Program-made: the position numbers and the translations under genes
NCBI RefSeq assembly: GCF_000720175.1
Contig: NZ_JOIX01000015.1
Span: forward strand, 119,815 to 183,814
Source of the DNA: Streptomyces sp. NRRL S-337
GTDB lineage: Bacteria > Actinomycetota > Actinomycetes > Streptomycetales > Streptomycetaceae
Length of the DNA stretch: 64,000 bases
Direction of reading: 5' to 3'
Shown here: piece by piece, positions 3,874-51,934 of the stretch
How the letters are laid out: the number at the start of each line of letters is the position of its first letter
How positions within the stretch are numbered: the stretch's first letter is position 1
The notes under the pieces: generated by a model
The model's database searches: none
Seen by the model: the letters and a program-made list of their open reading frames with translations, nothing else
What the model was told of the DNA's origin: nothing

Positions 3874-4303
3874 GAGTGCTCCCCCCGCTTTGACGACGGT
3901 CGCGCCGTGCGCGACCAGTGAGAACCGCCTTGCCTATTGGGGTGCTCTCGTCAAGATGGCGAAGCTAGCATCGCCGCCCGCTGTCAAGTTATTGGTTAAT
4001 TGGCCGCCCGGTGGGCGGTCCGTGGAATAGGCGGGAGATCTGCGTGGGGGCCGTAAGTTAATTTATCTGCCGCTTATTTTGGCGATGATCGCGAAGCGGC
4101 CGGCCGGCGCAGGAAAACTTTACCCATTCCTTCCCGCTTTTTACCGCAGAACGGGAATTTCCCCGGCCGCCGGCGTGTTTTCGCACCGCGGCGCGGACCC
4201 GGCACGGGGCGCGCACCGAACGGACGACGGGCGGCACCCGGATGGATGCCGCCCGTTCGCGTACGAAAATCACCGGGCGCGCATCCGCGCCCGGGCCTTC
4301 GGA
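3874..4303. other. AT-rich intergenic region upstream of the ABC exporter
   Basis: A gap of 430 bases between the exporter start and the end of ppa. The stretch from about 3980 to 4160 is AT-rich for this genome. On the minus strand a TTGACA hexamer lies at 3987-3982, with a loose TAGCTT at 3967-3962; the 14-base spacing is short for a vegetative promoter. A short inverted repeat (ggccgccc/gggcggtc) sits at about 4002-4020, and the ppa terminator at 4227-4256. Confidence 0.4.
4227..4256 (-). terminator. Hairpin terminator downstream of ppa
   Basis: Perfect 10-base arms (ACGGGCGGCA and TGCCGCCCGT) around a 10-base loop, about 50 bases past the ppa stop. There is no long U tract, as is usual for Streptomyces terminators. 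Confidence 0.6.
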
Positions 4304-4795
4304 TCAGTGCCCGCCGTGCGCCTCGGCGCGCTTGTACGAGGCCTCGATCTCGGCCTCGGCGTCCGCACGGCCGACCCAGTTGGCGCCCTCGACGGACTTG
4401 CCCGGCTCCAGGTCCTTGTAGACCTCGAAGAAGTGCTGGATCTCCAGGCGGTCGAACTCCGACACGTGGTGGATGTCACGCAGGTGCTCCACGCGCGGGT
4501 CGGACGCCGGGACGCACAGCAGCTTGTCGTCGCCGCCGGCCTCGTCCGTCATCCGGAACATGCCGATGGCGCGGCACTTGATGAGGCAGCCGGGGAAGGT
4601 CGGCTCATCCAGGATGACCAGGGCGTCCAGCGGGTCGCCGTCCTCGCCCAGGGTGTTCTCGACAAAGCCGTAGTCCGCCGGGTAGCTGGTCGAGGTGAAG
4701 AGTCGACGGTCCAGGCGGATCCGACCGGTCTCGTGGTCCACCTCGTACTTGTTCCGCGAACCCTTCGGGATCTCGATGGTGACGTCGAACTCCAC
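4304..4795 (-). CDS. ppa: Inorganic pyrophosphatase
   Basis: A 163-residue soluble family I pyrophosphatase that hydrolyses PPi to two phosphates and so drives biosynthetic reactions. The family residues are visible: [12 protein letters not shown] near the start, the metal-binding signature [11 protein letters not shown] and the [10 protein letters not shown] loop. I chose the GTG at 4795 ([12 protein letters not shown]) because a GGAGGA site lies just upstream and the protein then begins exactly as in other actinobacteria. An ATG 15 bases earlier (4810) is in frame but would include the ribosome-binding site in the coding region. It is divergent from dacB, with an 86-base shared promoter region. 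Confidence 0.95.
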
Positions 4796-4881
4796 GGGTG
4801 GCTCCTCCATGATCAACACATACGTCTGGTGATTAAGTGTCCCCCACGCAGGTGTGTGGTGGCGAAAGGGGCTGGTCCGAG

Positions 4882-41786: not shown

Positions 41787-44312
41787 ATGTTCGAGAGGTT
41801 CACCGACCGCGCGCGGCGGGTTGTCGTCCTGGCTCAGGAAGAAGCCCGGATGCTCAACCACAACTACATCGGCACCGAGCACATCCTCCTGGGCCTGATC
41901 CACGAGGGTGAAGGTGTCGCCGCAAAGGCCCTGGAGAGCCTCGGCATTTCGCTTGAGGCGGTCCGTCAGCAGGTGGAGGAGATCATCGGCCAGGGCCAGC
42001 AGGCCCCGTCCGGGCACATTCCCTTCACCCCCCGTGCCAAGAAGGTCCTGGAGCTGTCGCTCCGCGAGGCCCTCCAGCTCGGCCACAACTACATCGGCAC
42101 CGAGCACATCCTGCTCGGCCTGATCCGCGAGGGCGAGGGCGTCGCCGCCCAGGTCCTCGTGAAGCTGGGCGCCGATCTCAACCGGGTGCGGCAGCAGGTC
42201 ATCCAGCTGCTCTCCGGCTACCAGGGCAAGGAAGCCGCCACCGCCGGCGGCCCCGCCGAGGGCACGCCCTCGACCTCCCTCGTCCTGGACCAGTTCGGCC
42301 GCAACCTCACGCAGGCCGCTCGCGAGACCAAGCTCGACCCGGTCATCGGGCGCGAGAAGGAAATCGAGCGCGTCATGCAGGTGCTGTCGCGCCGCACCAA
42401 GAACAACCCGGTCCTCATCGGCGAGCCCGGCGTCGGCAAGACGGCGGTCGTCGAGGGCCTGGCCCAGGCCATCGTCAAGGGCGAGGTGCCCGAGACCCTC
42501 AAGGACAAGCACCTCTACACCCTCGACCTCGGTGCCCTGGTCGCCGGCTCCCGCTACCGCGGTGACTTCGAGGAGCGCCTGAAGAAGGTCCTCAAGGAGA
42601 TCCGCACCCGCGGCGACATCATCCTGTTCATCGACGAGCTCCACACCCTCGTGGGTGCGGGCGCCGCCGAGGGCGCGATCGACGCCGCCAGCATCCTCAA
42701 GCCCATGCTGGCCCGGGGCGAGCTGCAGACCATCGGTGCCACCACGCTCGACGAGTACCGCAAGCACCTGGAGAAGGACGCGGCCCTGGAGCGCCGCTTC
42801 CAGCCCATCCAGGTCGCGGAGCCGTCGCTGCCGCACACGATCGAGATCCTCAAGGGCCTGCGGGACCGCTACGAGGCGCACCACCGCGTGTCCATCACGG
42901 ACTCCGCGCTGGTCGCCGCGGCCACCCTGGCCGACCGCTACATCTCCGACCGCTTCCTGCCGGACAAGGCGATCGACCTGATCGACGAGGCCGGCTCCCG
43001 GATGCGGATCCGCCGGATGACCGCGCCGCCGGACCTGCGCGAGTTCGACGAGAAGATCGCCGACGTGCGCCGGGAGAAGGAGTCCGCGATCGACTCGCAG
43101 GACTTCGAGATGGCCGCGGGCCTGCGCGACAAGGAGAAGCAGCTCCTGGCCGCGAAGGCGAAGCGGGAGAAGGAGTGGAAGGCCGGCGACATGGACGTCG
43201 TCGCCGAGGTGGACGAGGAGCTGATCGCCGAGGTCCTGGCCACGGCCACCGGCATCCCGGTCTTCAAGCTCACCGAGGAGGAGTCCTCGCGTCTGCTCCG
43301 CATGGAGGACGAGCTCCACAAGCGCGTCATCGGCCAGAAGGACGCCATCAAGGCGCTCTCCCAGGCCATCCGGCGCACCCGTGCCGGCCTGAAGGACCCC
43401 AAGCGTCCCGGTGGCTCGTTCATCTTCGCCGGCCCGTCCGGTGTCGGTAAGACCGAGCTGTCCAAGACGCTGGCGGAGTTCCTGTTCGGCGACGAGGACG
43501 CGCTGATCTCCCTCGACATGTCGGAGTTCAGCGAGAAGCACACGGTCTCCCGGCTGTTCGGTTCGCCCCCCGGCTACGTCGGCTACGAAGAGGGCGGGCA
43601 GCTCACCGAGAAGGTGCGCCGCAAGCCGTTCTCCGTGGTGCTCTTCGACGAGGTCGAGAAGGCCCACCCGGACATCTTCAACTCGCTGCTGCAGATCCTG
43701 GAGGACGGTCGCCTGACCGACTCCCAGGGCCGGGTCGTGGACTTCAAGAACACCGTCATCATCATGACGACGAACCTCGGCACCCGGGACATCTCCAAGG
43801 GCTTCAACCTCGGCTTCGCGGCCCAGGGCGACACCAAGTCCAGCTACGAGCGGATGAAGAACAAGGTCAACGAAGAGCTCAAGCAGCACTTCCGCCCCGA
43901 GTTCCTCAACCGTGTGGACGACACCGTCGTCTTCCACCAGCTGACCGAGGAAGACATCATCCAGATCGTCGACCTCATGATCGCCAAGGTGGACGAGCGG
44001 CTGAAGGACCGCGACATGGGCATCGAGCTCAGCGGCACTGCCAAGTCGCTGCTGGCCAAGCGCGGGTACGACCCGGTGCTCGGCGCCCGTCCGCTGCGCC
44101 GCACGATCCAGCGCGAGATCGAGGACGCCCTCTCGGAGAAGATCCTCTTCAGCGAGCTGCGTCCGGGCCACATCGTGGTCGTCGACACCGAGGGTGAGGG
44201 TGACAGCGCCAAGTTCACCTTCCGCGGCGAGGAGAAGTCCGCCCTGCCGGACGCCCCGCCGATCGAGTCCGCGACCGGCGGCTCGGGTCCCAACCTGAGC
44301 AAGGACGCCTGA
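41787..44312 (+). CDS. clpC: ATP-dependent Clp protease ATPase subunit ClpC
   Basis: An 841-residue HSP100 unfoldase that feeds substrates to ClpP. Two N-terminal Clp repeats ([20 protein letters not shown]; second near 80-140), the first AAA domain with Walker A GEPGVGKT at 212-219, a UVR segment ([21 protein letters not shown]), the second AAA domain with GPSGVGKT at about 548-555 and the ClpP-docking VGF-like loop (NLGFAAQ) are present. GAGGAG lies before the ATG. Confidence 0.97.
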
Positions 44313-44616
44313 GCGGAAACGCCTCACCGCGCAAAGCGGCCATAGCGCCCCAACCGAATAAATCGGAGCAGGTGCACCGGAACTGCCCGGAATCGTACGA
44401 AACGATTCCGGGCAGTTCCGTTTCCGTTTGTGCACAGGGGTGCTCGGTGATCGGTGCTTGGTCTCAGTGCTCGGTATATGGCGGATACGCACGATGCAGT
44501 AGATACGGATGAGACACCCGACGCGGAAGAGCCGTTGTTCCGGTGCGCTTCCCCCAGCACTTCCGCAGCACTTCCGCGGCACTTCCGGGCACTTCCGGAA
44601 CGATTAGCTCCGGTGA
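44313..44616. other. Convergent intergenic region after clpC, 304 bases
   Basis: It contains the strong bidirectional terminator at 44378-44420. The rest, up to the NACHT stop, is moderately AT-rich and shows the short repeat AGCACTTCC/GGCACTTCC at 44560-44600. No gene. Confidence 0.55.
44378..44420. terminator. 19-bp bidirectional terminator between clpC and the NACHT genes
   Basis: Arms 44378-44396 and 44402-44420 pair perfectly around the loop ACGAA, followed by TTTCCGTTTG on the plus strand. Confidence 0.9.
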
Positions 44617-47205
44617 TTACCGCCGCACCACACGAATTCCGTCCGGAACCCCGTGCACCGGCGGAATACGGTGGCCGATCCGCAGCGTGTCCAGTTTCGG
44701 AAAGGCGGACAGCCACTCCATCGAAACGCCCAGGTCGTACGCGAGCCACAGCCGGGTCAGCCCCTCCGCCGGCACGATGCCCTCGACCAGCTGGTCCGGT
44801 GTGAAGTACCCGGCGATCCGCAGGTGCGGACGCCCGCCCAGCCGACGCAGCGCCTGCAGTTCCTCCGGGCCGGACACCGGGAAATACAGCTCGGCCGGAT
44901 CGAGGTGGGCGATGATCTCGCGGGCGTAGCGGGCCGTGTCGTAACGCCGCCACGCCCCGGCGAGCTGCGCCCGGATGTCGTGGTGCGCCCGGTCCCGCAG
45001 TCCCGTCAGGTAGTCGATCGCCATGTCGTCCGCGATCGAGGTGGCGGTGATCGCCAGCAGCACCGCCTCCCGGTCCGGGACGTCCGCGGGGTCCGGCAGC
45101 ATCTCCAGCACGATCGGCCCGATCCAGCCCAGCGCCCGCGCCGCCGACGGCGTACCCGGGCGCACCATGTCCCGCGTGAAGCGCTGCACCCGCGCCCGGA
45201 CCGCCGGATCCAGCTCCGCGGCGTGCTCCAGACAGGCCGCCGCCAGCAGCTTGCGGTGCCGGGCCTCCGCGGCCCGCACGCCCGGATGCGGGGCCAGCAG
45301 CCCGTCCAGCAGCGCCGCGCACTCGTCCGGCCGGGCCAGCGCCACCGCCATCCGGATCACGTCCTCCCACGCGTCGTGGTGCGCGTGCTCCAGCAGCAGC
45401 GTGAAATCGTGCCGCTGCACCACCGCCCGCGCGGACAGATAGTCCTGGAACGTGCGGTGCACGAAGTCGACGGTGCCGGGTGTCGGCTCCCGCAGCAGCC
45501 CGGTCCGGTTGAGCAGATGCCGGAAGACCTCCTCCGGTCCGCCCTGCCGCGCGGCGTCCGGAATGGCCGGCAGATGCTCCGCCAGCGTCGCGACCGCCGT
45601 CGCCCGGTCCATCTCCGAACGGCCGTGGATCAGCATCCAGTGGGCCAGCTTCTGCAGCAGCTGGATCTTCGGCTGCCGGGTCAGTTCCACCCCGTCGGGC
45701 GCCCCCATCGCCCGCTCCCGGTCCCGCCGCTCCAGCAGCATCGACAGCGCCGCGTCGTAGAGCTCCTTGCGCCCGTGCGGCAGATAACCGCGGCGGTCCC
45801 GGTGGAGGGCGCACAGCAGCCCGCACATCAGCGGATTGGTCGCCAGCCGCCCCAGATCGCGGGTGATCCGCACCGCGTTGAGCAGCGTCCGTTCGTAGTC
45901 GGCGAGCCGGTCGAGGTCGGCCGGGCGCTGCAGGGCCGCCGCCCGGTGCCAGCGCTGGATGAACGCGGCGACGTCCTCCCGGCTCATCGGCGCCAGCGCC
46001 ACCTCCGCGAAGCCCTCGCCGGCCAGCCAGTTGCCGGGCACCGCGGACGGCCGGGAGGTGACGATCCAGACGTTGCCCGGGTAGCGGCCGGTCCACTCGC
46101 CGAGCTTGCGGCGCAGCTGCTCCCGCTCGTCCTCCGGCGCCTCGTCGACCCCGTCGACCAGCAGCAGCGCCCGCCCCTCGGCCAGCACCCGCTCCGTCCA
46201 GCCGGCCGGCGCCCGGTCCGCGTCCTGATGGCCGACGGCGTCCAGGAAGGTCTCAGGATCGGGCAGCCCCGCCCGCGCGAACCGGCGCACCGGCAGCAGG
46301 AACGGCACCCGGCCGCGCAGCTCCACCAGCGCCTCCGGCAGCTCGTCGCGGGCCGTGGCGACGGTCAGCCACTGCAGCAGCGTCGTCTTGCCGGACCCGG
46401 CCACCCCACGCACCAGCACCCGCCCGCGCCCGGCCAGCGCCCGCTCGGCGGGCAGCGGCGGATCGTCCTCCGGGGACCCCGGCTCGCACTGCAGCCCCAG
46501 ATAGGCGGCGTCCAGCGGCCAGCTGTCCGGGGAGTGCGCGAGGTCGATGCCGTAGATGGTGAGGTGGTTGTGGAGGGCAGCGGTGCGCCGCGCGTACTCC
46601 TCCTCGAAGGCGGCCTCGTCCACGGCTGGTTCGTCCACGGCGGGTCCGCCGACGGCCTCGCTGCGCGCGCGATCCGGCGGTGCGGCGGTGGCCGCGGCGT
46701 ACGGCCCGTGGATCAGCTCGGCGAGCGTACGGGTCTGCTCGGCCAGGGTGTGGGCCACGTACGGCGACCGCCGGGTGAAGAAGTACAGGACGTGCCGGGC
46801 CACGACGTCCACCAGCAGGCCGTACAGCCGCGCACGGTCCCCGGGGAGCCGCCGGGCGGCCTCCGGCACCCGCGCGCACAACCGCCGGGCGAACTCGGCG
46901 GGCAGCAGCCGCGCCGCGTCGACGTCGTCCATCCCGGTCTCGGCGAGTGCCCGCAGCGTACGGGCCAGCGCGGCGGCCAGGGCCGGGTCGTTGCCACCGG
47001 TCGCCTGCTCGACGAGGGACGCGGCGAGGTCGTCCAGCCCCGCCTCGCTCAGCTCGGGCTTCTCCCCGGCGAACGACACCAGCCGGGCGATCGGAACGGG
47101 CCGGCCGACCAGCTCGGTGACCGGCCCGTCGGAGCGGAACAGCTTGCGGACGAGGGGATCGACGGTGTGGGGGGCGAGACGTGCGGCGAGGCTCGTGGGA
47201 TCCAT
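44617..47205 (-). CDS. NACHT-domain STAND NTPase A (bacterial NLR-like)
   Basis: An 862-residue protein. N-terminal helical domain (about 1-240); NACHT NTPase with Walker A GVAGSGKT at 267-274, Walker [11 protein letters not shown] at 346-355 and sensor TSRPSA at 383-388; winged-helix-type end with the [14 protein letters not shown] signature; helical repeats; and a very short leucine-rich end ([38 protein letters not shown]). It starts [23 protein letters not shown], matching the paralogue upstream (MDPSAVGIRLASG), which fixes the start. STAND proteins of this design act as ligand-triggered oligomerising switches; bacterial NACHT proteins are known anti-phage factors. It follows NACHT B after 63 bases in one operon. 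The effector activity, if any, is not recognisable. Confidence 0.9.
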
Positions 47206-47268
47206 GGACTTCCCGTAACTGCGGTACCGGGCAGGGTGGTTGGGCGCCTGATGTGCGGTCCGGCCGGC

Positions 47269-50200
47269 CTAGGCGCGGGGGCGGGGGTGAAGGGTGAGTT
47301 CGACGCTGGGCGGGAGGTCGGGGAAGGGGTCGGGGCGGAGGCCGTAGAGGCCGAGTTCGCGGAGCTCGGACAGCCCGGGCAAGGGGGGAAGGGCGATCGG
47401 GGCGTCGATCGCGCCGTAGACGTTGAGCCTGGTCAGGCAGGGGAAGGCCGGAAGGAGCGTCTCCAGAAGCACGCTCAGCCGGGCAGCGGACACCCGTGCC
47501 GGATTGACCAGTTCGAGGGTGGTGACCTGGGGGAGCCGGACGCCTGGCGGAAGGTCCAGCGACCACACCTCGTCGGACGCCAGGCCCACGGACAGCCAGC
47601 GCAGTTCCGCAAGCGAGGCTAGCTCGGCCCACTGGTCCTCGCCGAAGGCCTCCGTGAGCCGAGGGAGGTGCAGGGTGCGCAGGCTTGGCCAGGAAGTCAG
47701 GCCGGTGAACTCGGCTCCGAGGGGCGCGCCGAGCGCCAGGAAGGTCAGCGGCGCGCGGGCGGGCAGCGCCGGGATGCCGTCCGGCAGTCGGGAGTAGAGG
47801 CCCAGAGTGGTGAGGCCGGTCAGCGCGTCGAGCCCGGGCGGGGTCGGCAGATCCTGCTCCGGCGGCCCCAAGAGGTTCAGCGTACGGATGTCGAGGTCCG
47901 CGAGCGGGGCGAGGCTTTCGACCGCGGGGCACCCCCACAACGACAGCCACTCCAGATTTGGGAACTCGCGGAGGAAGCCGAGGTCGGCGATCTCCGGGTT
48001 CGAGTCGATCGTCAGGCTCCTGAGCGGCTCGTGGACCAGCTCGTCGAGGAGCTCGCGAGCGGTGAACGCGCCGCTCGCCACGACACCGCGCCGGCCCCCG
48101 AGCTCCTTGAGCGCACGCAGCTCGGCGGTGGATTCGGCGGTGACCATCACGTCCTGGTCGAGGTACCGAAGAACGTCCCGGGCATACGGCTCGGTGTCGA
48201 ACGCCCGCCAGGAAGCGGCGAGTTGCACCTGGCCACGGCGCGAGCCATGGGAACGGAACCGTTTGATCACTTCGAACGCCGCATCCGACCCGACCAGCGC
48301 CGCCGTCGCCACCACCTCCTGCGCCTCGTCGTCCTCCAGCCCCTCCGGTCCCGGCAGCAGTTCCACGACCAGCGGCCCCACCGAGGCCAGCAGTCGCGAT
48401 TCCTCCCGGCTGCGCGGCGGCAGGATCGCCCGCGCCCGCGCGTTCACCTCCTCCCGTACGGCCGGGTCGAGTTCCGTCGCGTGCTCCAGGCAGGCCAGGG
48501 CGAGCAGATGGACCCGCAGCCGGGTCGCCGGGTCGTCGGTGGCGTCTCCGCGGACGAGCAACTCCCGCAGCAGCTCGGCCCGTTCGCGCGGCCGGGCGTG
48601 TGCCACCGCCATCCGGATCACGTCCTCCCACTGGACGTCCTCCGCATGGGCCACCAGCAGCCCGATGTCACCGTCCTCGACGGCCGCCTTGGCGCCCAGG
48701 TAGTCCTGGAACGTGCGATGGACGAACTGCACCGAACCGGCCACCGGCTCGCGCAGCAGCCCGCTCCGCAGCAGCAGATGACGCAGCACGGCCGCCGCGT
48801 CCCCCTGGCGGGCCGCCGCCGGCACCGCAGGCAGCGCCTCGGCGACGATCCGCTCGGCCCGGTCCCGGTCCAGTTCCGTCCGGCCGTTGCGGATCAGCCA
48901 GTACGCCAGCCGCTGCAGCAGCTGGATCTGCGGCTCGTCGTTGAGTTCGATGCCCGTGGGGGCGGCCATGTCGCGTTCGCGGTCGCGGCGGGAGAGCAGC
49001 ATGACCAGCGCCGCGTCGTACAGCTCCTTGCGGCCGGTGGGCAGATAGCCGCGCCGGTCGCGGTGCAGCGCGCAGATCAGCCCGCACATGAGGGGGTTGG
49101 TGGCGAGCCGGGCGAGGTCCTGCTTGGTGTGGACGGCGGCCAGCAGCGACTGCTCGTACGCGTCGAGGCGGGCGGGGTCCTCGGCGCCGCGGCGGGCCGC
49201 GTCGTGCCAGCGGCCGATGAACGCGGTGACCTCGGCGCGGCGCAGCGGCGCCAGCGTCAGCTCGTCGAAGCCGTCGGAGGCGAGCCAGTCGTCGCGCACC
49301 GCGGAGGGCCGGGTGGTGACCAGCCACAGGTTGTCCGGGAACGCGTCGAGCAGGTCGCGCAGCCAGCGCCGGGCCTGGGTGCGCTCGCGGTCCGGGATCT
49401 CGTCGAGCCCGTCGACGAGGAGCAGGCCCCGTCCGGAGGCCAGGATCCGGTCGGTCCAGCCGTCGGGCCGGGCATCGGACAGCGGGCAGCCGACGGCCGC
49501 CAGGAAGCGGTCCGGGGTGGGCAGCGGCGCACCGTCACGGGTGAGGGTGCGCAGCGGCAGGACGAACGGGATCCGGCCGTAGAGGTGGGGGAGGGGCGTC
49601 TCGCCCGGGGCCTTGGTGCAGGAGACGGCCAGCCACTGCACGAGGGTGCTCTTGCCGGAACCGGCCACACCGCGCAGCAGCACCCGGTCGCGGCCGGCCA
49701 GGGCCCTGGTCGGCGGGGAGGGGCGCCGGCGCGCCGGCCGGGTGGGTGCCGTCCTCCTCCCACGGGGCGGTGGCCTCCGGCCCGCGCCCGGCGGCCGGTG
49801 TCGCCGCGAGGCTCATGTACGCGGCGTCGAGCGGCCACCGGTCCGGGGAGTGGGTCAGGTCGATGCCGTAGATGGTGAGCCGGCTGTGTTTGCGCGCCAC
49901 GTAGGTGAGATAGCTGCGCTCGAAGGCGAGGTCCGCCGCCCGCGGGGACGGATGCCGTTCGAGGAACGCGTCCATGGTGGCGATCAGGCCGTCCAGGCTG
50001 CGGGTCTGCTGGACCAGGGTGCGGGCGACGAAGGCCGACCGCTGGCTGAAGAAGTGCACGATGTGCAGGCAGGCGGTGTCGAGCAGGGCGCGGTGCAGCA
50101 GCTCGGCGTCCCGGGACAGGCCGCGGGCGGCGGACGGGGCCGCGGTCCGCAGGCGGCCGGCGAGGGCACCGGCGCCGAGGCGGACGGCCTGGACGTCGTC

Positions 50201-50509
50201 CATGTCGAGATCGCCGAGGGCGTGCAAGGTGTCGGCGAGCGCGTCGGCCACGGCCCGCTCCTCGTCCTCGGGAACCGGCCGTTCACCCGGGCCGCAGCCG
50301 CGTAACGCCCGCCGCACCAGCTCCGCGGCGAGTTTCTGCAGGTCCTTGCGGGTGAGGGTGCGCTGCTCGCCGGTGAAGGACACCAGGGCGGAGATCCGTA
50401 CGGGGGCCGGGACGAGGCCGGCGCCCGGCCCCTCCTTGACGAAGAGCCTCCGGACGAGCGGGGCCACCGCGCCGGACGCGAGCCGGATACCCACTGCTGA
50501 CGGGTCCAT
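47269..50509 (-). pseudogene. NACHT-domain STAND NTPase B with C-terminal LRR, split by a one-base frameshift
   Basis: Two frames together give one protein of about 1,079 residues. The N-terminal part (50509 to about 49710) encodes the helical domain, starting MDPSAVGIRLASGAVAPL and running to ATAPWEEDGTHPAGAPAPLPAD. The NACHT domain (Walker A GVAGSGKST, Walker [33 protein letters not shown]) and a long leucine-rich C-terminus (SLTIDSNPEIADLGFLREF, LEWLSLWGC, LRTLHLPRL, LRELGLYGL) follow in another frame. Removing one C of the GACCAGG at 49708-49709 restores PADRALAGRDRVLLRGVAG, which aligns with [19 protein letters not shown] of NACHT A. As given, the first frame stops at 49535, and the second has no good start. 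It may be a real mutation, a switchable state or a sequencing error. Confidence 0.85.
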
Positions 50510-50528
50510 CGTGTGCGCCTCCCCCATG

Positions 50529-50611: not shown

Positions 50612-51047
50612 CGGTGATGTCGTGGGGCCAGGCTAGCCGGGACGGTGTGGCGGCGGTCACGGAATTCGCCATCCCGGACACGCCCTCCCGGGTACCCGAA
50701 CAATCCCTCCGCAATAACCGGATCGCCGCCCGCGAGTAATGCGCGTCACAGCCTTCCGGTAATCCAGGTCACATCGCCCAGGTAACCCAGGTCACAGAAA
50801 AGCCGGGCCGGTAGTGACATGACGCACAGCCGGCTTTTGGCCTACTAGCGGAATTAGAAGAAAGGGCGGGCGGGGGTGCGGGGGTTTTCCGGGGCCGGGG
50901 CGGGGTGTGGCGGGGGCGGCGGCCCGAGCGGGCCCGTCACCTGGGCAATGCGCGGGTAAAAGGCCTGATCAGCCGCAGTATCGCGGGCATCTCGGCTGTC
51001 CGGAATGCGGTGATTCGTACGGGTCATGCAAAGGGGTGAGCGGAATG

Positions 51048-51104
51048 CAAGAGGTTCTTTCCCGACGGCTTTCGTACGGGCCTGCCTAGTAGCAGGGGCT
51101 CTTG
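51048..51104 (+). promoter_or_regulatory. Candidate structured leader RNA of the M23 peptidase gene
   Basis: Three nested helices close a three-way junction: P1 CAAGAG/CTCTTG (51048-51053 with 51099-51104), P2 CCCGACG/CGTaCGGG (51061-51067 with 51073-51080, one bulge) and P3 CCTGC/GCAGG (51081-51085 with 51092-51096). It ends about 130 bases before the start codon. Cell-wall hydrolase genes of actinobacteria are often controlled by c-di-AMP (ydaO-type) riboswitches; some words here resemble that motif, but the architecture is not a clear match. Confidence 0.35.
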
Positions 51105-51235
51105 GCGGGGCGGCCCGGACGGGTTACCAAGGAATGGCGCTTCCGGGCCGCAGCCGGACTCGCGAAATTCCTGATCTCCAGATCCATCCGATCTCGCAGA
51201 TCTCCCTGATCGAATTCCGGAAGGAAAAAACCCGC

Positions 51236-51934
51236 ATGTCGAAGTTCGCCGCCATTCGCCATTCCAAGAACTCCGCCGGTACCCCGAAGACCGCGAAGTC
51301 CCTGCTGCGCCGCCGGGCCGCCGTGGTGGCCGCCGGTGTCGGTGTGACCGTCGCGCTCGGCGCCGGTGCCGCCTCCGCCGCCGACGGTGGTCTGCTGGGC
51401 CTCACCTCGCACGTCGGCTCGACCGTCAGCGCGCAGGCCGACGCCCAGGCCAAGGCCGCCACCGGCGCCAAGGCCGCCGCGGCCAAGGCCAAGAAGGACG
51501 CGGCCAAGAAGGCCGACGCCTGGGTCAAGCCGGTCGACAAGTACACGCTGGGCGAGCCCTTCGGCATCCCCGGCAGCCACTGGGCGCACAAGCACAGCGG
51601 CCAGGACTTCGTCGTGCCGAGCGGCACCGTGGTCAAGGCCGTCCACCAGGGCACCGTCATCAAGGCCGGCCCCTGGGGCGGCGGTGACGGCCCGGCGTAC
51701 GGCAACGCCATCGTGATCCAGCACGCCAACGGGGTGTACACCCAGTACGCGCACCTGTCAGCGATCCAGGTCCACGTCGGCCAGCAGGTCGGCGCCGGCC
51801 AGCAGATCGGCCTGTCCGGCAGCACCGGCAACTCGACCGGCCCCCACCTGCACTTCGAAGTCCGCACCGGCCCCAACTACGGGTCGGGCATCGAGCCGAC
51901 CGGATTCCTGCGGGCTCACGGCGACGCCGTCTGA
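51236..51934 (+). CDS. Secreted M23-family peptidoglycan endopeptidase
   Basis: A 232-residue exported protein. The signal peptide (basic start, hydrophobic AAVVAAGVGVTVALGAGAASA) ends at ASA before ADGG. An Ala/Lys-rich coiled linker follows, then a LytM-type zinc peptidase domain with HSGQDF (H and D ligands), GNAIVIQHANGVYTQYAHL and HLHFE (HxH). It would cleave peptide cross-bridges in the wall. The ATG at 51236 has GGAAGGA ahead. Its 3' end overlaps the convergent tetR by 19 bases. Confidence 0.92.
   Translation: MSKFAAIRHSKNSAGTPKTAKSLLRRRAAVVAAGVGVTVALGAGAASAADGGLLGLTSHVGSTVSAQADAQAKAATGAKAAAAKAKKDAAKKADAWVKPVDKYTLGEPFGIPGSHWAHKHSGQDFVVPSGTVVKAVHQGTVIKAGPWGGGDGPAYGNAIVIQHANGVYTQYAHLSAIQVHVGQQVGAGQQIGLSGSTGNSTGPHLHFEVRTGPNYGSGIEPTGFLRAHGDAV

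Follow-up and report, generated by a model that had tools for sequence, protein, structure and literature searches.

Two tandem genes of a Streptomyces strain, here called A and B, probably encode bacterial immune receptors of the nucleotide-binding leucine-rich-repeat receptor (NLR) type; B would be a diversifying sensor, A the steadier paralogue, and the outcome arrest or death of the infected cell. These minus-strand paralogues lie between clpC and an M23 peptidase gene, both on the plus strand, in the window (the whole stretch of 64,000 nucleotides that was analyzed; Streptomyces sp. NRRL S-337, contig NZ_JOIX01000015.1, positions 119,815 to 183,814). The source genome is that of a Streptomyces near S. 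nigrescens HEK616 and S. endophytica HNM0140 (gene A identity 92 and 94%). Direct observation supplies the domains of both proteins, the predicted fold of A, an exchange of the domain in the effector position, evolution that differs from domain to domain, deletion and transplantation of the N-terminal NNH1 domain, and a broken reading frame in B.

Domain architecture of A and B

The two genes and their parts are as follows (LRR, leucine-rich repeat; ORF, open reading frame).

44617..47205, minus strand: gene A, NNH1-NACHT-short LRR, 862 residues, ATG start, single intact frame
46711..47187, minus strand: NNH1 of A, residues 7-165 (Pfam 103 bits, cut-off 27)
45940..46419, minus strand: NACHT of A, residues 263-422 (Pfam 98 bits; fold match to NLRC4/NOD2/NLRP3)
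44896..45375, minus strand: helical HD2-like region of A, residues 611-770, mostly within the NLRC4 match (193-748)
44620..44895, minus strand: short LRR-like C terminus of A, residues 771-862, kept among orthologues
47206..47268, minus strand: gap of 63 bp, B stop to A start
47269..50509, minus strand: gene B, whole, 3241 nt, not divisible by three
49535..50527, minus strand: N-terminal frame of B, ORF of 330 residues, likely start 50509
49958..50491, minus strand: NNH1 of B (Pfam 205 bits)
49684..49816, minus strand: GC-rich linker of B, place of the frame change, 83.5% GC; open in L113 and L114
47269..49683, minus strand: C-terminal frame of B, ORF of 804 residues with NACHT, helical region and LRRs
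49198..49683, minus strand: NACHT of B (Pfam 91 bits)
47272..48174, minus strand: LRR region of B, exposed positions hypervariable among related B proteins

The genes stand head to tail 63 bp apart, as a preliminary description of this DNA had stated. Their N termini are homologous (48% identity) and both belong to Pfam NNH1 (PF22733), which confirms the common N-terminal domain proposed there. NNH1 and NACHT (cut-off 26.7 bits) are matched far above chance in both genes, the NACHT of B in its C-terminal frame. The expected core motifs are likewise present: Walker A (GVAGSGKTT in A, GVAGSGKST in B), an acidic Walker B (VDGVDE and VDGLDE), TSRP/TTRP, and the signature [10 protein letters not shown]. 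The same description had reported no recognizable effector fused to either protein, which needs the amendment that the N-terminal domain of both already has a family name, NNH1. The predicted structure of A, the one modeled, has a NACHT fold and matches NLRC4, NOD2, and NLRP3 across the NACHT, winged-helix, and HD2 regions, in agreement with the suggested animal-NLR-like domain order. The leucine-rich ends described for both proteins proved unequal: for B, where Pfam LRR_4 scores 19 bits (below the cut-off of 27), a motif search by eye in a close relative gave about ten LxxLxLx strands, and the C terminus of A has about four short LRR strands in the structure model.

The broken frame of B

Both genes had been taken to be intact; this holds for A and fails for B, whose NNH1 and NACHT-LRR parts are in different frames, a split also returned by the whole-genome search. 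In two close relatives (L113 and L114), B is one open frame of 3240 nt. The ratio of nonsynonymous to synonymous substitution rates (dN/dS) of B against its relatives is 0.19-0.23 for the N-terminal part and 0.31-0.41 for the C-terminal part, and the two intact relatives give 0.34 and 0.43 between themselves. Since both halves are still under purifying selection, the break either arose recently or reflects a sequencing error in the linker, whose GC content is 83.5%; because of it, only A is encoded intact in the genome as assembled. In other strains, two short B proteins (P0226 and P0230) begin just upstream of Walker A, owing either to a broken gene or to the way it was annotated. Gene A of S. 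pinistramenti (L122:106-2791) is also in two frames, split between NNH1 and NACHT. The NNH1-NACHT linker may be a recurrent spot of breakage or sequencing error.

The clpC-M23 site and its N-terminal slot

The site is bordered, and separated from clpC, by the following features.

41787..44312, plus strand: clpC, left border (from the ORF list and the site survey)
44378..44420, plus strand: 19-pair hairpin with a T-rich tail, between the convergent clpC and gene A
51026..51934, plus strand: putative M23 peptidase gene, by reading of the ORF, right border

The hairpin is likely a terminator, although its count is weak (1 found versus 1.2 expected in shuffles). To survey the site across Streptomyces, 80 regions downstream of clpC were taken, 20 by the most similar ClpC and 60 picked by hand, mostly on long contigs; L096 was dropped where its contig ended, and 5 of the 79 usable regions lack a downstream marker. 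The markers beyond the site (M23, TetR, MFS, histidine kinase, response regulator) are mostly syntenic, with several losses. Full-length NACHT genes occupy 41/79 sites, one to three at each and 51 copies in all; remnants are present at 4 and nothing at 34. A repeat with filters off returned the same 41 sites, 51 full copies, and 4 remnants. Near-universal presence with strict conservation of both sensing ends, the pattern that the preliminary description had named as contrary to its proposal, was thus not what the survey found, and the sensing end of B is not conserved (below); the other contrary outcome named there, a structure prediction without a NACHT fold, does not apply to the model of A. 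At the empty sites L050, L078, and L101, translations of the gap read as other genes, such as secreted carboxypeptidase-like and acid-phosphatase-like ORFs, and at the empty site L069 the translation after clpC looks by eye like a decayed trypsin-NACHT start. Rows of three NNH1-NACHT genes, one of each row in the A clade, stand at the clpC sites of L055, L086, and L099.

The occupied sites differ in what precedes NACHT. NNH1 types alone are present at 29, non-NNH1 types alone at 11, and both at 1. Each of the 12 proteins without NNH1 matches a trypsin-like domain at its N terminus, the match of L081 being below the Pfam cut-off. These trypsin-like-protease-NACHT proteins, examined with Pfam as were the genomes with an NNH1-less A, are at L052, L053, L054, L059, L061, L062, L072, L081, L089, L098, L110, and L112. 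The His, Asp, and Ser motif residues are kept in 14/14 (the 12 at the site and two elsewhere, of which L162 is below the cut-off), and a pre-NACHT segment common to both types follows directly after the protease domain. On a tree of 117 of 131 NACHT domains (12 loci omitted as near-copies; quick search, no bootstraps), the 12 proteases of the site group together as a single clade with a Shimodaira-Hasegawa-like approximate likelihood ratio (SH-aLRT) support of 100, and the two others fall elsewhere on long branches. The exchange between NNH1 and protease is for the most part an ancient divergence of two clades, with no swap in progress, and the site proteins are candidate NLR-controlled proteases of Streptomyces. 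Replacement of NNH1 by a protease at 12 of 41 occupied sites supports an effector position for the N-terminal domain, which had earlier been suggested to be itself an effector or an oligomerizing adaptor; because NNH1 holds the slot of an active-looking protease, there is a positional argument that it is a signaling or effector module.

Domain-wise evolution of A and B

A and B change in different places. Among 93 B-like proteins, site entropy is 0.59 bits for the conserved NNH1 and 0.68 bits for the LRR framework; the exposed LxxLxLx positions reach 2.20 versus 1.53 for the remaining LRR region (Mann-Whitney p 1e-5, treating sites as independent). Among 51 A-like proteins, the C terminus is conserved, and of five measured domains NNH1 varies most (1.35). 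Across the seven strains that carry A and B together, mean NNH1 identity is 0.61 for A and 0.77 for B, and mean LRR identity is 0.80 and 0.46. In 20 of 21 strain pairs, the nonsynonymous rate (dN) of NNH1 in A exceeds that in B; for the LRRs this holds in 0 of 21, the pairs being non-independent. The earlier picture of two sensors with the same signaling end and different sensing ends is upheld as to the sensing ends, hypervariable in B and short and conserved in A; the "same signaling end" hides an asymmetry, as the NNH1 of A drifts and can be lost.

That loss took place two times, once in a lineage around S. chattanoogensis and S. natalensis and once in a second lineage that includes S. albus, strain F63, TP-A0874, and a metagenome-assembled genome (MAG). 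In these two lineages (L117, L121, L136, L142, L144, and L147), an A-type NACHT-LRR protein lacks NNH1 through a clean deletion: no NNH1 remnant was found upstream of the shortened gene in 6/6 loci, two of them near contig ends, and the proteins restart at the same boundary, P0033 retaining MDPTS. The shortened A is under purifying selection (dN/dS 0.19 for L117/L121 and 0.26 and 0.32 for two pairs of the second lineage, versus 0.18 for one full-length pair). In the S. chattanoogensis/natalensis group, a full-length B adjoins the NNH1-less A in L117 and L121, and P0032/P0178, P0033/P0188, and P0035/P0191 each combine an NNH1-less A with a full-length B of the same named strain, apparently on the same contig; no B was found for P0037 among the matches listed. 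Four of the six NNH1-less-A genomes have NNH1 elsewhere or adjoining. A transplant is seen at L035:15169-17871 (genome G090), where an A-type NACHT-LRR carries an NNH1 that falls inside the B set (SH-aLRT 98); this site has no separate B, and another NNH1 gene is present elsewhere in the genome.

Proposed mechanism and alternative readings

We infer a mechanism from general knowledge of NLRs and from the bNACHT literature (PMC12169576). A and B are STAND NTPases by their NACHT matches and Walker A and B motifs; NNH1 would be the signaling domain, NACHT-winged-helix-HD2 the switch, and the C-terminal LRRs the sensor. The LRRs would bind a ligand, most likely a phage product, upon which the NACHT switch would open, exchange ADP for ATP, and oligomerize; the clustered NNH1 domains would then, directly or through a partner, halt or kill the infected cell. 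B would be the diversifying sensor of intruders and the source of a conserved NNH1, and A a conserved paralogue, possibly a partner or guard, with a dispensable NNH1 of its own. In this genome, with B frame-broken, only A as assembled would be able to work. A closer version, in which the pair at the clpC-M23 site is a sensor and a helper and A co-assembles with B and borrows its NNH1 in trans, would explain the drift of NNH1 in A and its two deletions; we regard this version as unlikely.

Several observations count against the immune reading or against partnership of A and B. The best match of the locus in PADLOC-DB 2023 has E 0.029 and 10.7 bits, and NNH1 by itself gave no useful fold match in the structure comparison. 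The entropy test assumes independent sites, with LRR strands picked by eye from one sequence. The dN of NACHT is also higher in A (21/21 strain pairs), so part of the NNH1 drift in A is gene-wide. The second lineage of NNH1-less A gives dN/dS of 0.26 and 0.32, and NNH1 is absent from two of the six NNH1-less-A genomes, L144 (a 5.1-Mb draft, with two further NACHT matches above cut-off, 39 and 27 bits) and L147 (a MAG, 81% complete). Among 13 A-clade sites, 7 are without another NACHT gene (L035, L040-L045), 2 have a core B (L034, L046), and 4 have another NNH1-NACHT gene (L055, L077, L086, L099); at L033, L036, and L037, core B has no A beside it. The NNH1 of A scores 259-297 bits beside B and 236-360 where A is alone at a site; among genes without a neighbor, L041, L042, and L045 score 236-242 bits and L043, L044, and L116 score 308-309. 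Because some lone A proteins also have a low-scoring NNH1, its drift does not track the presence of B, and partnership of A and B was rated lower for this reason and is doubtful.

These solitary genes speak for a reading in which A and B are independent NLR-type sensors, each forming its own homo-oligomers, and the tandem arose by duplication or by accumulation at a permissive site. It gains from the NACHT tree, where A and B are separate clades and genes from outside the site occur both in the A clade and in a broader clade on the B side, but leaves unexplained the selection retained on the NNH1-less A and the full-length B that adjoins it, or shares its named strain, in the S. chattanoogensis/natalensis group; we consider it quite possible, if short of probable. 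A similar standing is given to the view that the locus here is a decaying remnant, with B a pseudogene and A an orphan: it may well hold, although we lean slightly the other way. The broken B, the remnants at 4/79 sites, the protease-like one read by eye at L069, the short P0226 and P0230 (which could be annotation), and the break of A in L122 fit such decay, but A is intact and both halves of B are under purifying selection, as are its intact relatives.

It is also conceivable, if unlikely, that NNH1 is an adaptor that recruits a separate effector and is not the killer itself. Multicellular bacteria commonly have EAD adaptors in their conflict systems (PMC8195603, PMC10907252). In the NNH1 alignment, six columns are invariant, all of them in the pre-NACHT segment and none in NNH1 proper, which, with the lack of a useful fold match, would suit an adaptor. 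An EAD-like adaptor would, however, be expected on separate effectors, and NNH1 is mostly in long frames: among the matches listed for 150 genomes of the genus that cover at least 150 of 177 positions, 128 of 136 are in frames of at least 800 residues (a hand count by length only). The eight short matches include B of the window, the L107 remnant, and one with a stop (G129); L193 and L195 are broken, L196 is cut by a contig end, and L194 and L197 have NNH1 without NACHT nearby, a further point for an adaptor. L194:623-1759 is a frame of 379 residues (NNH1 168 bits) with no NACHT in the surrounding 6 kb, either an isolated NNH1 or a remnant. At L197:4141-4987, a convergent membrane-protein-like ORF on the opposite strand (4141-4854) takes the place of NACHT. 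A second recognized effector domain was found on none of the five short matches opened, NNH1 was not seen fused to another effector, and no recognized effector gene was seen beside the A/B pair, the whole window not having been scanned for one. A profile built from the clpC-site proteins gave 16 bits on a divergent NNH1, where Pfam gave 161 (L195) and 182 (L193 region); as it nearly misses such domains, NNH1-only remnants may be undercounted. In the search for homologues across the genus, four candidates per genome were scored. On these sequence grounds, the evidence leans against the adaptor. A role of A and B as regulators of stress or development, and not in immunity, is improbable. NNH1 is common in the genus (above cut-off in 91/150 genomes) and rare in a sample of the phylum (7/296, six of the seven in Streptomyces), and the genes adjoin clpC, as might be expected of a regulator; their patchy presence, the remnants, the protease swaps, and the hypervariable LRR surface misfit a core regulator, and clpC is convergent, with the hairpin in between.

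Paired sensor-helper NLRs are known in plants and animals. If bacteria have such pairs, the division of labor among NLRs may predate eukaryotes, and natural domain swaps (the protease in the NNH1 slot, the NNH1 of B on A) would make the modular logic readable at one locus. Even without pairing, a single site whose related NACHT-LRR proteins begin with NNH1, with a protease, or with neither offers ready-made constructs for the role of NNH1.

Comparison with known systems

No function for the NNH1-NACHT family and no description of the paired asymmetric arrangement or of the NNH1-less form were found in the literature searched; the locus is a real NLR-like locus of a known kind, and its mosaic, asymmetric pairing was not found described. 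CARD and PYD are domains of animal NLRs; unlike NLRC4, NOD2, and NLRP3, A and B carry NNH1 and neither of these, and A ends in a very short LRR part. EruA, an antiphage NACHT protein (NCBIfam NF058535), is matched weakly by A (residues 448-601, 28 bits); with 1318 positions and a cut-off of 1000 bits, that model leaves A far below membership. In PMC12169576, the order in bNACHT proteins is given as sensor-NACHT-effector, phage-triggered DNase action is described in other proteins, and clade 14 is without a readily discernible effector. A and B resemble bNACHT25, bNACHT32, and clade 14 as described there in their central NACHT, C-terminal sensor, and N-terminal effector position, and differ from the bNACHT proteins of that source, which have an N-terminal DNase or no effector that is discernible, with NCH1 or SNaCT, in having NNH1, LRRs, and a tandem pair. 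They belong directly to the NNH1-NACHT proteins of Streptomyces (PF22733), a family with at least 2598 and at least 2763 scored homologues and one NCBI name, "NACHT N-terminal Helical domain 1-containing protein."
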